Shown here one piece after another: positions 29,972 to 34,454 of a DNA stretch of 64,000 bases; position 1 is the first letter of the stretch; each line of letters opens with the position of its first letter. Origin of the DNA: Cellulomonas composti (lineage in GTDB: Bacteria > Actinomycetota > Actinomycetes > Actinomycetales > Cellulomonadaceae). The notes under the pieces are model-generated. The model searched no databases, was not told the DNA's origin, and worked only from the letters and a program-made list of their open reading frames with translations. The translations under genes were made by a program, and so were the position numbers. Location: NCBI RefSeq assembly GCF_007990245.1, contig NZ_BJWG01000006.1, positions 1 to 64,000 on the forward strand, written 5' to 3'.

Positions 29972-31390
29972 ATGACTTCTGCACCCCTCGACGACGGCGT
30001 CGAGTACCGGATCGAGCACGACACGATGGGTGAGGTCCGGGTCCCGGCCGCCGCCCTGTACCGCGCCCAGACGCAGCGCGCCGTCGAGAACTTCCCGATC
30101 TCCGGCAGCACCCTGGAGCGCGGGCACATCGAGGCCCTGGCCCGCATCAAGAAGGCCGCGGCCCGCGCCAACGCCGAGCTCGGCGTGCTGCCGCAGGACG
30201 TGGCCGACGCGATCGTCGCGGCCGCCGACGACGTCGCGAGCGGCGCGTACGACGCGCACTTCCCGGTGGACGTCTACCAGACCGGCTCGGGCACGTCGTC
30301 GAACATGAACACCAACGAGGTCGTCGCGACGCTCGCCACGCGCCGCCTGGGCCGCGACGTGCACCCGAACGACCACGTCAACGCCTCGCAGTCGTCCAAC
30401 GACGTGTTCCCGACGAGCGTGCACGTCGCGGCCACCGCCGGCGTCGTGCGTGACCTCGTGCCCGCGCTCGAGCACCTCGCCGGCGCGCTGCAGGACAAGT
30501 CCGACGCCTGGGCCGGCGTCGTGAAGTCGGGCCGCACGCACCTGATGGACGCGACGCCCGTGACCCTCGGCCAGGAGTTCGGCGGCTACGCCGCCGCCGT
30601 GCGCTACGGCGTCGAGCGTCTGCAGGCAGCGCTGCCCCGCGCCGCGGAGGTCCCGCTCGGCGGCACCGCGGTGGGCACCGGCATCAACACCCCCGCAGGC
30701 TTCCCGCAGCGTGTGATCACGCTGCTGCGCGAGGACACCGGCCTGCCGCTGACCGAGGCGCGCGACCACTTCGAGGCGCAGTCCTCGCGTGACGGGCTCG
30801 TCGAGCTCTCCGGTGCGCTGCGCACCATCGCGGTCAGCCTGACCAAGATCTGCAACGACCTGCGCTGGATGGGCTCCGGCCCCAACACGGGGCTCGGCGA
30901 GATCGCCATCCCCGACCTGCAGCCCGGTTCGTCGATCATGCCCGGCAAGGTCAACCCCGTGGTCCCCGAGGCCGTGCTCATGGTCGCGGCGCGCGTCGTC
31001 GGCAACGACGCCACGGTCGCCTGGGCCGGGGCCTCCGGCTCGTTCGAGCTCAACGTCCAGATCCCTGTGATCGCGTCGGCGCTGCTCGAGTCGATCCGTC
31101 TGCTCGCGAACGCCAGCCGGGTGCTGGCCGACCGCACCGTCGTCGGGCTCGTCGCCAACGAGGCACGCGCCCGGGCGTTTGCGGAGTCGTCGCCGTCGAT
31201 CGTCACGCCCCTGAACCGCGTGATCGGCTACGAGGCCGCCGCGAAGATCGCCAAGCACGCCGTCAAGGCGGGCATCACGATCCGCCAGGCCGTGATCGAC
31301 CTCGGCTACGTCGAGCGCGGCGAGCTCACCGAGGCCACCCTCGACGAGGCCCTCGACGTCCTCACCATGACCCGCCCACCCCAACCCTGA
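29972..31390 (+). CDS. fumC: Fumarate hydratase, class II
   Basis: This 472-residue enzyme of the TCA cycle hydrates fumarate to L-malate as a homotetramer. Family hallmarks are [14 protein letters not shown] (104-117), the active-site block [13 protein letters not shown] (185-197) and the signature [11 protein letters not shown] (319-329). Full length, no anomalies. AGGA lies 8 bp before the ATG at 29972. It is followed by 1.4 kb of repeats before the next, converging gene. Confidence 0.97.
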
Positions 31391-31426
31391 CCCTCCTCCC
31401 CCGGCCCCGCCAGCCCCCCCGACCTG

Positions 31427-31500
31427 AATGCAGAGATGAATACAGGTCTCGCCGGCCCCACCCGCCGAGTCCTGCACCCATAGCTGCACCCACCAGCGCC
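31427..31500 (+). repeat. Hairpin unit A1
   Basis: First forward copy, the most diverged of the four (AATGCAGAGATGAATACAGG as left arm). Core at 31454-31466. Confidence 0.75.
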
Positions 31501-31511
31501 GGCACGAGCCG

Positions 31512-31595
31512 GTCGGCGCAGGTGGGTCGGCGCGGGTGGGTCGGCGCGAGTCGGTCGGCGCGGGTCGGTCGGCGCGAGTCGGTCGGCGCGGGTGG
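31512..31595 (+). repeat. 14-bp minisatellite, 6 copies
   Basis: GTCGGCGC starts recur at 31512, 31526, 31540, 31554, 31568 and 31582, exactly 14 bp apart. The unit is GTCGGCGCGRGTSG with few variants. Confidence 0.9.
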
Positions 31596-31620
31596 GTGGG
31601 GGGCGAGCTACTCGGGCGTG

Positions 31621-31694
31621 AGTGCAGGGATCGATGCAGGTCTCGCCGGCCCCACCCGCCCGTTCCTGCACCCACAGCTGCACCCACCAGCGCC
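31621..31694 (+). repeat. Hairpin unit A2
   Basis: Second forward copy, core at 31648-31660, preceded by the shared spacer GAGCTACTCGGGCGTG. Confidence 0.85.
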
Positions 31695-31758
31695 TATCAG
31701 TCGGCGCCGGCGCGCGGGGCTGGGCCCGGACGGGCGAGTTGCCGGCGACTCGGGCGTG

Positions 31759-31832
31759 AGTGCAGGGATCGATGCAGGTCTCACCGGCCCCACCCGCCGG
31801 GTCCTGCACCCATAGCTGCACCCACCAGCGCC
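31759..31832 (+). repeat. Hairpin unit A3
   Basis: Third forward copy, nearly identical to A2 and A4. The A2-A3 interval (138 bp) lacks the minisatellite. Confidence 0.85.
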
Positions 31833-31843
31833 GGCGCGAGCCG

Positions 31844-31941
31844 GTCGGCGCGGGTGGGTCCGCGCGGGTCGGTCGGCGCGAGTCGGTCGGCGCGGGTCGG
31901 TCGGCGCGGGTGGGTCGGCGCGGGTCGGTCGGCGCGGGTGG
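31844..31941 (+). repeat. 14-bp minisatellite, 7 copies
   Basis: The same 14-bp unit at 31844, 31858 (variant GTCCGCGC), 31872, 31886, 31900, 31914 and 31928. The A3-A4 interval is 208 bp, exactly one 14-bp unit longer than A1-A2 (194 bp). Confidence 0.9.
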
Positions 31942-31966
31942 GTGGGGGGCGGGCTACTCGGGCGTG

Positions 31967-32040
31967 AGTGCAGGGATCGATGCAGGTCTCACCGGCCCCA
32001 CCCGCCGGGTCCTGCACCCATCGCTGCACCCACCAGCGTC
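31967..32040 (+). repeat. Hairpin unit A4
   Basis: Fourth forward copy. Arms 31968-31986 and 32011-32029 pair at 16 of 19 positions; the inner CCGGC/GCCGG pair closes a CCCACCC loop. Confidence 0.85.
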
Positions 32041-32116
32041 GGCGCGGATCGGTCGGCGCGGGTACGGGTGATTCGAGCGGGCGACCGTCGGGACGGGGTG
32101 GGCGCGGCGCGGGCTA

Positions 32117-32190
32117 CTCGTGTGTGGGTGAAGCGATCGGTGCAGGGTTCGGCGGGTGGGGCCCGTCAGCCCTGCATCCATGACTGCACT
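32117..32190 (-). repeat. Hairpin unit B1 (reversed)
   Basis: First reversed copy, with core GGCGGGTGGGGCC at 32151-32163, the exact reverse complement of the A core. Confidence 0.8.
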
Positions 32191-32283
32191 CATCGGGGAT
32201 GGCGCAGCGACGGGTGCGGGGCGGGGTGCGGTGCCGGGACGGCGCCGGTGTGCTGGGCGATGCCGGGGCGATCGGGTGGCGGG

Positions 32284-32357
32284 TGCAGGCGTCGGTGCAG
32301 CAGTGAATGCAGGGTTCGGCGGGTGGGGCCCGTCAGTCCTGCATTCATGGCTGCACT
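32284..32357 (-). repeat. Hairpin unit B2 (reversed)
   Basis: Core at 32318-32330. The outer arms pair at 17 of 19 positions. Inner arm bases next to TGCAGG/CCTGCA differ from the A units on both sides in a compensatory way (AATGCAGG with CCTGCATT). Confidence 0.85.
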
Positions 32358-32482
32358 CATCGGGGATGGCGCAGCGACGGGTGCGGGGCGGGGCGCGGTG
32401 CCGGGGCGGGGTGCGGTGCCGGGACGGCGCCGGGGTGCCGGGACGGCGCCGGGGTGCTGGGCGATGCCGGGGCGGTGGCGGG

Positions 32483-32556
32483 TGCAGGCGTCGGTGCAGC
32501 AGTGAATGCAGGGTTTGGCGGGTGGGGCCCGTCAGTCCTGCATCCATCGCTGCACT
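32483..32556 (-). repeat. Hairpin unit B3 (reversed)
   Basis: Core at 32517-32529, nearly identical to B2 including flanks. Confidence 0.85.
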
Positions 32557-32611
32557 CATCGGGGATGGCGCAGCGAGGGGTGCGGGCGGGGTGCGGCGTC
32601 GGGGTGGCGGG

Positions 32612-32685
32612 TGCTGGCCTCGGTGCAGCTATGAGTGCGGATGTCGGCGGGTCGGGCGGCCGGGTGCTGCACCCATTGGTGCATC
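32612..32685 (-). repeat. Hairpin unit B4 (reversed, diverged)
   Basis: Most diverged reversed copy, core GGCGGGTCGGGCG at 32646-32658, still in the same register with arms around TGCACCCATTGGTGCA. Confidence 0.55.
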
Positions 32686-32714
32686 CGTCGGGGCCCAGAC
32701 GGGGGACGGTGTGG

Positions 32715-32742
32715 GTGAGGGGCGGCGTGGGCCGCCCCTCAC
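32715..32742 (-). terminator. Terminator downstream of the MFS pump
   Basis: GTGAGGGGCGGC and GCCGCCCCTCAC form a perfect 12-bp stem with loop GTGG, about 65 bp past the stop codon of the minus-strand transporter. Confidence 0.75.
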
Positions 32743-32744
32743 GG

Positions 32745-32820
32745 GTCAGTGGCCGGCACTCAGGTGCCAGTGGCCGGCGCTCACGGTCAGTGGCCGGCAC
32801 TCACGGGTCAGTGGCCGGCG
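32745..32820. repeat. ~21-bp tandem repeat covering the 3' end of the MFS gene
   Basis: Four imperfect copies of GTCAGTGGCCGGCACTCACG. The last copy contains the stop codon and final Gly-His codons of the minus-strand transporter, so the repeat appears to have grown by duplication of the gene's own 3' end. Confidence 0.75.
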
Positions 32821-34454
32821 GTGGTGGTGGCCACTGCCGTCGGGTCGGGGGCGCCGTGGTGGTGGGGGCGGACCGAGGACATGACGAGCGCCGAGACCAG
32901 GCCGAGCGCCAGCACACCGACGGTGAGCAGGAGGGTCTGGCCGACGGCGGTGGACAGGCCGGCGTGGATGGCGTCGGCCGCGGCGGTCTGGACCTGGGCC
33001 CAGACGTCGTCGGGGACACCGTCCGGCTTCGGGAACGCCTCGGCACCGCCGCCCGCGAGCGCGGACGGGTCGATGTGCGAGAAGGCCTCGAGGAACGGGG
33101 TCCGCGCCGCCTCGGGCAGCGACTGCGCGGCGGTGGCTGCCTCTGCCGGGATCTCGATGCCGAGACGCGACGTGAACAGCGCAACCACGGCCGCCGAGCC
33201 GATGACCCCACCGATCTGCCGGTTGGTGTTGAACGCACCCGCCCCGGCGCCGGCGTTGCGGTGGTCCAGACCGGACGTCGCGAGGTTTGCCAGCGGCGAG
33301 AACAGGCAGCCGGTGCCGATGCCGAAGAAGCACATCGTGAGGACGAGCTTCCAGACGGCCACGTCCGGTGCCACCAGCTCGGCCAGCGCCCACACGACGA
33401 GGACGAGGATGCCGAAGCCCGTCGCGACGATCCACTTGCCGGGCACCTTGTCGGACAGGCGGCCCGCGAACGGCGCGACGATGCCGGACAGGAGCGAGCC
33501 GCCCAGCCCGACGAGCGCGGACTGCAGCGGGGTCATGCCGAGAGCGACCTGCAGGAAGATCGTGAACGGGAAGAAGATGCCGGTCATCGCGAACGTCACG
33601 GACCAGCCGGCGACGTTGGAGAGCGTGAAGTTGCGGTAGTGGAACAGCCGCAGCGGCATGAGCGCGTCGTCACCCAGGTGGCGCTGCCAGAAGCCGAACG
33701 CGACGAGCAGCGCGACGCCGGCGGCCATCACGCCCCACACGGTGATCGGGCCGCGGATGGTCCCCCAGTCGTAGGTCGACCCCTCCTGCAGACCGAACAC
33801 GAACAGGAACATGCCGACGACGGAGAGCCCGACGCCCACGAGGTCGAACGTGCGGTCCGAGGTGGGCAGCCGGGGCAGGTTCCGCAGCGCGAACACGAGC
33901 GCGACGATGCCGACCGGGATGTTGACGAAGAAGATCCACTCCCAGCCGATCGGCACGAGCAGGCCGCCGAGCACCGGGCCCGTGATCGTCGCGACACCCG
34001 CGACGGCACCCCACACGCCCATCGCCGCGCCACGCTTCATCGGCGGGAACACGCGCGTGATCATCGACATGGTCTGCGGCGTCATGAGCGCACCGCCGAC
34101 GCCCTGGACAGCACGGGCGATGATGAGGAGCTCGACGGTGCCGGCCAGGCCGCAGGCGAGCGAGGCCAGCGTGAACAGCACCAGGCCGGAGACGAACACG
34201 GGCCGTGGCCCGAACTTGTCACCGAGCCGGCCGGTGACCAGGAGGAGCACCGCGAACGTGAGCAGGTAGGCGCTGTTGACCCAGCCGACCGCGGTGACGT
34301 CGGCGTCGAGCTCCTCCATCAGCTTCGGGACCGCGACGTTCACGATCGTCGTGTCGAGCATGATCATGAAGAAGCCGAGGCACAGCGGCGGGAGGATGCT
34401 CCACGGGCTGCGGCCGTGCAGGTCGACGAGCGACTCCGGCTGGGGGTGGGACAT
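32808..34454 (-). CDS. DHA2-family multidrug MFS transporter
   Basis: This 548-residue inner-membrane proton-driven exporter fits the 14-helix DHA2 (EmrB/QacA) class. Motifs are the N-terminal LDTTIVNVAVPKLMEEL (helix 1), GRLGDKFGPRPVFVSG (motif A after helix 2), ARAVQGVGGALMTP (helix 4) and the motif C-like GPVLGGLL in helix 5. A periplasmic loop of about 75 residues precedes the last helix. Upstream in-frame sequence beyond ATG 34454 is not conserved-looking. It lies 104 bp downstream of a PadR regulator gene, which probably controls it. The last codons lie in a tandem repeat. Confidence 0.92.
   Translation of the reverse strand: MSHPQPESLVDLHGRSPWSILPPLCLGFFMIMLDTTIVNVAVPKLMEELDADVTAVGWVNSAYLLTFAVLLLVTGRLGDKFGPRPVFVSGLVLFTLASLACGLAGTVELLIIARAVQGVGGALMTPQTMSMITRVFPPMKRGAAMGVWGAVAGVATITGPVLGGLLVPIGWEWIFFVNIPVGIVALVFALRNLPRLPTSDRTFDLVGVGLSVVGMFLFVFGLQEGSTYDWGTIRGPITVWGVMAAGVALLVAFGFWQRHLGDDALMPLRLFHYRNFTLSNVAGWSVTFAMTGIFFPFTIFLQVALGMTPLQSALVGLGGSLLSGIVAPFAGRLSDKVPGKWIVATGFGILVLVVWALAELVAPDVAVWKLVLTMCFFGIGTGCLFSPLANLATSGLDHRNAGAGAGAFNTNRQIGGVIGSAAVVALFTSRLGIEIPAEAATAAQSLPEAARTPFLEAFSHIDPSALAGGGAEAFPKPDGVPDDVWAQVQTAAADAIHAGLSTAVGQTLLLTVGVLALGLVSALVMSSVRPHHHGAPDPTAVATTTAGH

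Follow-up and report, generated by a model that had tools for sequence, protein, structure and literature searches.

The stretch of DNA analysed here, called the window, comprises bases 1 to 64,000 of contig C6 of the Cellulomonas composti genome (3.54 Mb in 34 contigs, 99.99% complete). Within it, a gene-free interval of 1.4 kb separates fumC, which encodes a class II fumarase (29,972–31,390, forward strand; gene call, with Pfam matches to Lyase_1 and FumaraseC_C), from the gene of an MFS transporter that converges on it from the right (32,808–34,454, reverse strand; gene call, Pfam MFS_1 at 1.6e-59), and this interval holds an array of eight palindromic 70-bp units between 31,424 and 32,688. 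Genes were called with a simple composition model, trained on the window, that misses some genes. Taking the strand of a unit as the orientation of its centre, four units in reverse orientation (31,424–31,493, 31,618–31,687, 31,756–31,825 and 31,964–32,033; nhmmer profile E values of 1.4e-15, 8.1e-15, 9.9e-17 and 1.1e-16) are followed by four in forward orientation (32,124–32,193, 32,291–32,360, 32,490–32,559 and 32,619–32,688; E values of 1.8e-14, 7.6e-15, 2.3e-15 and 8.6e-10), the last of which is the weakest of the eight, matched by nhmmer at 32,619–32,687 and with its end placed by the dyad. The units are spaced at 129 to 208 bp, and tandem repeats with a period of 14 bp occur in some spacers (family D5 of the repeat search, forward strand, at 31,517–31,592, with a second run at 31,849–31,938). 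The array sits between the stop codon of fumC and a strong, GC-rich, terminator-like hairpin at its far end (32,715–32,742, assigned to neither strand; 12-bp stem, -29.6 kcal/mol). Three further direct repeats (family D7; 32,723–32,820) lie outside the array, around the 3′ end of the MFS gene.

A preliminary description of this DNA had reported eight related units, four in one centre orientation and then four in the other, between converging genes, and this is borne out by the repeat, profile, gene-call and Pfam checks. Its finer points fared less evenly, and the observation of the array is partly confirmed. The core said to be exact in every unit, GGCCCCACCCGCC, is indeed exact in all four left units, whereas only three of the four right ones have its exact reverse complement. 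Where 16 to 17 of 19 outer pairs had been claimed, units 1 to 8 form 12, 13, 14, 15, 13, 16, 15 and 14 Watson–Crick pairs respectively (pairs 4 to 22). As the best window per shuffle averages 12.7 of 19 pairs and reaches 15 (100 mononucleotide shuffles of the interval), the dyad symmetry of any single unit is modest, and the excess over chance lies in its recurrence across units and loci.

A 12-bp half-site, RTSGRTGCAGNN, occurs four times in each unit: the left arm has a tandem pair and the right arm an inverted pair, at fixed spacing, with 26 bp separating the inner TGCAG from the inner CTGCA. Over 276 pooled half-sites the bases T, T, G, C, A and G are conserved at 96, 92, 98, 98, 96 and 96%, while the S and R positions are variable; three units (L028:4764, L011:4671 and L020:4215) carry an extra 12-bp repeat in one arm. 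The design is dispersed through the genome. At the 24 loci fetched, a profile search located 77 units; 61 have a length of exactly 70 bp, in place of the 74 bp first given, and one is a 45-bp fragment. BLAST with one unit returned 95 HSPs at E values up to 1, with many palindromes counted on both strands, and a pattern of 22 fixed bases, allowing up to three mismatches, matched 78 places compared to one for the reversed control pattern. Loci outside the window hold between one and six units. Mixed centre orientation was called at three loci alone, i.e. the window, L015 and L020 (orientation being undecided for 12 units), so that the four-and-four mirror arrangement of the window is unusual. 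Six contigs (C2, C5, C12, C13, C19 and C21) start or end with an element, which suggests that the draft is probably broken at arrays, that the element count is a minimum and that the true number may be higher. Searching Rfam gave no match at the curated gathering score, its two matches both falling far below.

These elements are intergenic with respect to the called genes: among 69 clusters, 26 from C. composti and 43 from congeners, none extends more than 15 bp into a called gene. The clusters fall into 20 convergent, 35 tandem, seven divergent and seven contig-edge contexts, classes that rest on a home-made gene caller, and a few of which are wrong because it misses some genes. A fixed convergent-gene context was rejected, as these contexts do not differ from the gene layout of the window itself (12, 27, 12; chi-square p 0.19). 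The median distance from an element is 55 bp to adjacent 3′ ends (n=79) and 134.5 bp to adjacent 5′ ends (n=52).

Related elements were also found in other members of the genus. BLASTN with the element found nothing in 24 genomes of the genus and, in G034, a genome of another family, a single short match of 31 bp; a sequence-only model of the element matches nine of 81 genus genomes, C. composti included. The congener units keep their arms and a total length of 70–71 bp, and their centre sequence differs between species. The half-site, too, has species-specific versions, which occur in both arms together: GRTGCAG in C. composti, GGTTGCAG in Cellulomonas sp. JH27-2 (G002), CGTYGCAG in Cellulomonas sp. 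PhB150 (G068) and CGTTGCAG in G060. This joint change of both arms between species keeps the dyad. Congener elements are mostly single and dispersed, with 14 places in G002, 10 in G050, nine in G068, eight in G060 and seven in G058, compared to 1, 0, 2, 2 and 0 places respectively for the control pattern, although in G060 and G068 most dispersed matches are at three mismatches, where the control gives two. Single matches to the N27 pattern in G055, G013 and G022 (two to three mismatches) are read as chance, as controls reach four per genome.

The array has no counterpart at the fumC locus of the congeners examined. The fumC gene was found in 77 of the 81 genus genomes, and the interval after it was examined in the 29 congeners with a returned locus; the next called gene follows after 49–167 bp in all of them, converging in 23, and no element was found at any of the 29 loci at up to four mismatches. 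By eye, an ordinary GC hairpin can be seen in many of these intervals. In one of them, G064 (L227), there is a single palindrome which, judged by eye, is similar to the GTGAAGA palindromes of the ino1 type (described below); the gap there is 97 bp, compared to 49 bp in G017 and 50 bp in G023, and looks like an element-sized gain, with no target duplication seen. The strict GTGAAGA pattern matches neither this palindrome nor the ino1-type locus of G064 itself, and the kinship is thus one judged by eye alone. For the 70-bp element, neither a target-site duplication nor a clean recent insertion was demonstrated, which counts against the explanation favoured below.

Comparing the neighbours of elements between species brings out one common place, the gene for a 319-aa protein adjoining that of NAD synthase. 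In C. composti it lies away from the window, at positions 278–1,234 of contig C5 (G000:C5). Close orthologues occur in seven of the 81 genus genomes, and the gene is located between nadE and glnA in six of seven loci (in C. gelida on two contigs), the C. composti contig ending before the glnA side; the identity of nadE and glnA rests on Pfam for one of each and on likeness for the remainder, and the orthologue of G002 is among the genes missed by the gene caller. Palindromes of the same layout stand on both sides of the 319-aa gene in C. composti and in six other Cellulomonas, one of them borderline. In terms of left–right flank similarity, all six testable loci score 18–41, and 97 control genes of the wider set reach at most 18; G024, whose score of 18 equals the highest control, is the borderline case. 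In C. gelida a contig break divides the gene, and each of the two contigs has an element. The association has exceptions, which weigh against the favoured explanation: the palindromes beside the gene in G060 and G068 are of another version (TTGCACGACACGCC, GTGTGCGACACGCC) than most of the dispersed ones, three genomes (G057, G058 and G091) have elements without the close gene, and in two that have the gene (G024 and G039) the TGCAG pattern finds no element, with one match to the model in G024. Nevertheless, the association between gene and palindromes is well supported and the 319-aa protein is likely to be the partner of the 70-bp element; binding, cleavage, copying and a physiological role are inferred.

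A confident AlphaFold2 model of the 319-aa protein combines an AbiEi-like winged-helix DNA-binding part with a putative catalytic domain of Vsr/EDxHD-type nuclease fold. Across 69 homologues E202, D236 and H254 are invariant and D267 is conserved in at least 90%, residues which may correspond to the EDxHD motif. The residue aligned to the glutamate of the ELDG of paralogues is a glutamine in the 319-aa type, and its nuclease may therefore be altered or inactive. Sequence searches of solved structures and of NCBIfam gave no match.

Weaker homologues, with 29–39% identity, extend the pattern to other palindromes. Most of those examined lie beside ino1 and have different palindromes on both sides, among them TGAAGCG and GTGAAGAC; in G094 and G015, for example, the gene is flanked by TGAAGCGTTGTTGCCGGATTCCGGCAACAACGCTTCA, which has nine places in each genome and whose pattern matches 14 of the 81 genus genomes, some with one chance-like place. 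The protein search found the ino1-type gene in 31 of the 81 genomes. From 30 loci, 26 have testable flanks and 20 of these score at least 20, compared to none of 22 control genes; the layout is absent at the other six, including G083, which counts against the favoured explanation. Co-occurrence of the TGAAGCG palindrome with the ino1-type gene is weak, the gene being present in six of nine genomes with the element and 25 of 72 others (p 0.08). Palindrome similarity follows protein identity, with a Mantel r of 0.79 over 20 loci (0 of 5,000 permutations) and of 0.70 for pairs below 80% identity, values taken from the matched palindromes alone, as adjacent coding sequence inflates the whole-flank version; part of the correlation could stem from common descent alone. 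The ino1-type gene is in two pieces in G070, G020, G057 and G060, suggesting its decay. C. composti also has a second palindrome family, GGGTGGA...TCCACCC, which adjoins its own ino1-type gene (L143:2251-2588, contig C20) and has one more copy at a contig start (L012:6-44, contig C2), near a 70-bp element.

Further afield, 1,001 of 7,996 scored candidates are homologues at an E value of 1e-5; some of the counts in this analysis are inflated by shared ancestry. In a set of named Actinobacteria, for which 45 of 46 loci were given (L158 being left out) and 40 were testable, 14 loci score at least 19, compared to none of 97 control genes. Six of the 14 are Cellulomonas; the other eight include a Kineosporiaceae metagenome-assembled genome, whose arms have the tandem 12-bp half-site layout in another sequence. 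For Mumia and two Terrabacter, further copies of the palindromes that flank the gene were found at other places in the genome: the Mumia palindrome has four forward and five reverse matches, and a Terrabacter palindrome has 10, 13 and seven places in three genomes at up to three mismatches, where the control gives none, although some of the weaker Terrabacter matches may be due to chance. Against the favoured explanation, 26 of the 40 loci score below 19; the layout was found at none of six testable Lentzea loci and at one of eight named Streptomyces.

Considering these observations together, we favour, with a probability of roughly 0.6, the reading that a dispersed, REP-like palindrome has expanded locally into the array, and that this palindrome would be recognised by a dedicated DNA-binding, nuclease-like protein whose gene lies outside the window. 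The clearest parallel is the REP–RAYT system, where two inverted REPs border a RAYT gene that keeps its place as the REPs diverge, and where arrays also occur, as described in the available text of PMC2817692. Both share dispersed extragenic palindromes, a gene in a conserved position with two flanking copies, orthologues that remain at their locus despite divergence of the palindromes around them, and arrays, and the arrangement of a cognate gene between two palindromes with further copies dispersed is present here, with the exceptions given above. They differ in the element, the 70-bp unit being longer, with tandem half-sites and without a GTAG/GTGG tag at one end: units do start with GTSG, with C as the third base in 47% of first half-sites, but this start belongs to the half-site that is repeated at both ends. 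They differ as well in the partner, which here has a predicted AbiEi plus EDxHD/Vsr fold, and in the host, which is actinobacterial, RAYTs with abundant REPs having been found only in gammaproteobacteria as far as the same text of PMC2817692 goes. Membership of the REP–RAYT family was rejected, as a search for Y1_Tnp (PF01797), the Y1 (HUH) transposase domain, gave no match in the 99.99% complete C. composti genome while the control was positive in five of 14 genomes. The REP/BIME-like guess of the preliminary description was thus the best of the three it offered, in that the elements are dispersed, present in congeners and likely to have a protein partner, but that partner is not a RAYT.

Other known systems also invite comparison. 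PMC3733652 describes, in the part available, TIRYTs and TIRtrons, transposase genes whose long flanking inverted repeats form families, and the CGTC REPs, which have no known dedicated transposase. The TIRYTs resemble the present genes in being flanked by repeats but are tyrosine (HUH) transposases, and the same part of PMC3733652 links neither them nor TIRtrons to AbiEi or Vsr-like proteins. Compared to the AbiEi antitoxins (AbiEi of S. agalactiae and Rv2827c of M. tuberculosis), the 319-aa protein has an additional predicted nuclease-like domain at its C-terminus; its sites, unlike those of AbiEi type IV toxin–antitoxin systems, are dispersed through the genome, and no gene for an AbiEii nucleotidyltransferase toxin was seen beside it, the neighbours being nadE and glnA, or ino1 on one side. 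It differs from the EDxHD homing endonuclease I-Bth0305I and from Vsr in that no intron was seen, orthologues occupy one fixed locus and palindromes are dispersed.

An alternative is that the protein organises the chromosome as a sequence-specific bridging or partition factor, the palindromes being its dispersed sites around the origin and any mobility incidental. Fixed spacing and intergenic placement fit binding sites, and in six complete genomes with dnaA first (DnaA being identified by Pfam in one and from the appearance of the sequence in the remaining five) all 40 counted ino1-type palindrome sites lie in the origin-proximal half, with smallest-arc p values of 0.0009 to 0.021 per genome (G049, G083, G094, G003, G061 and G070); this count, from the TGAAGCG search, takes one of two neighbouring sites for G049, G070 and G094, and omits G051 and G023, which matched on one strand, as well as G093, G059 and G087, which have a single site each. 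The MatP–matS system offers a precedent, in which one protein has dispersed sites confined to part of the chromosome. Such confinement is seen here for the ino1-type family, but these sites are long palindromes on the origin side, and no MatP-like fold is among the structure matches listed for the model of the 319-aa protein. However, the cognate-type gene is itself near the origin in four of the genomes (G083, G094, G061 and G070), so that origin clustering may be just local spread around the gene, which has been reported for some REPs (PMC2817692, available text). The six genomes are also of common ancestry, and arrays of eight and strong differences in copy number are ill-suited to a conserved architectural role. 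Overall, we regard an organising function as rather unlikely.

Less probable still is autoregulation, with the protein as a transcription factor, the flanking palindromes as its operators and the dispersed copies as its regulon. According to the available text of PMC7319586, the promoters of AbiEi and Rv2827c contain inverted repeats to which these proteins themselves bind, and palindromes do occur upstream of the gene. They are, however, found on both sides of it; of the 62 clusters for which both neighbours were seen, 20 are flanked by converging genes, a setting in which no neighbouring promoter is expected; and the elements lie nearer to adjacent 3′ than to adjacent 5′ ends, the window array itself being between two 3′ ends.

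It is highly improbable that the elements act at the RNA level, as hairpin terminators or mRNA stabilisers between genes whose fold is under selection. The units can fold, the window array lies between converging genes with a terminator-like hairpin after it, both arms change jointly between species, and the centre forms more pairs than the 3.9 of 13 expected by chance in C. composti (6.9), G002 (8.2), G068 (7.4), G060 (6.8) and G057 (6.0). In G050 and G058, by contrast, the centre is at chance (4.1 and 4.3 of 13 pairs; 16 elements), and within the C. composti genome covariation is absent: over 69 units, 68 of them distinct, the score of the full stem is 0.138, below the mean of 0.154 (sd 0.007) for shuffled alignments, 497 of 500 of which equal or exceed it, and the four variable arm pairs are independent across all units (Fisher p 0.26 to 1.00). 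The compensating difference between A and B arms, which the preliminary description took as a sign of selection on the fold, is therefore not general within the genome. Independent variation of the arms is what is expected of a duplex site read half-site by half-site, unlike selection on an RNA hairpin, and so supports a protein-binding DNA site rather than an RNA fold. A terminator array, also proposed there, is unlikely as a general function, given that 42 of the 69 clusters lie in tandem (35) or divergent (7) intervals and that all 29 congener fumC intervals are short and without the element. The description had further staked its interpretation on the units recurring beyond the array and on covariation of their pairing; the first expectation held, with units dispersed in the genome and diverged copies in congeners, whereas the second failed within the genome. 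Lastly, chance or passive tandem duplication of an intergenic palindrome with no protein partner would explain the near-constant unit period often seen within one locus, but has very little chance of being right in view of the same geometry at 24 loci and in congeners, and since genes of one family are accompanied by matched palindromes in several genera, unlike the controls (0 of 97 and 0 of 22).

Returning to the favoured reading of a palindrome with a dedicated protein, a possible route can be outlined. The winged-helix domains of dimers or tetramers would bind the half-sites as duplex DNA, and the nuclease domain would nick or cut at or near the palindrome; repair or replication could then copy the element into new intergenic sites, where unequal recombination would build tandem arrays like that of the window. 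In line with what has been proposed for REPs and RAYTs, the element would travel as a passenger, with the gene as a partner passed on by vertical descent. Overall, the interpretation of the preliminary description is partly supported; as to its idea of a binding cluster, the evidence points indirectly to protein binding of the units, in which a nucleoid protein may have a part. More broadly, we consider it an even call whether these proteins make up an undescribed class in Actinobacteria, of AbiEi–EDxHD fusions, selfish or domesticated, each of which would bind duplex DNA and spread its own palindrome family between genes, near its gene or the origin, forming an independently evolved, non-HUH counterpart of REP–RAYT systems with many specificities.

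What is new here is the pairing of protein and repeat, for which the evidence consists throughout of sequences and models, and its organisation parallels REP–RAYT. Where REP-like repeats have a known dedicated partner, it is a tyrosine transposase (a RAYT or one of its kin), and for some REPs none is known, according to the available part of PMC3733652; within the open-access PMC literature, nothing was found that links AbiEi, DUF559, MTES_1575 or Vsr-like proteins to dispersed palindromes. If the pairing is real, a second, unrelated class of nuclease would have matching palindromes, implying that such systems arose more than once, and the route may use duplex rather than single-stranded DNA. 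Actinobacterial proteins named ‘AbiEi antitoxin’ or ‘DUF559’ may be misread as parts of toxin–antitoxin systems, and natural protein–palindrome pairs of many specificities would provide a ready test of co-evolution between a DNA-binding domain and its site.
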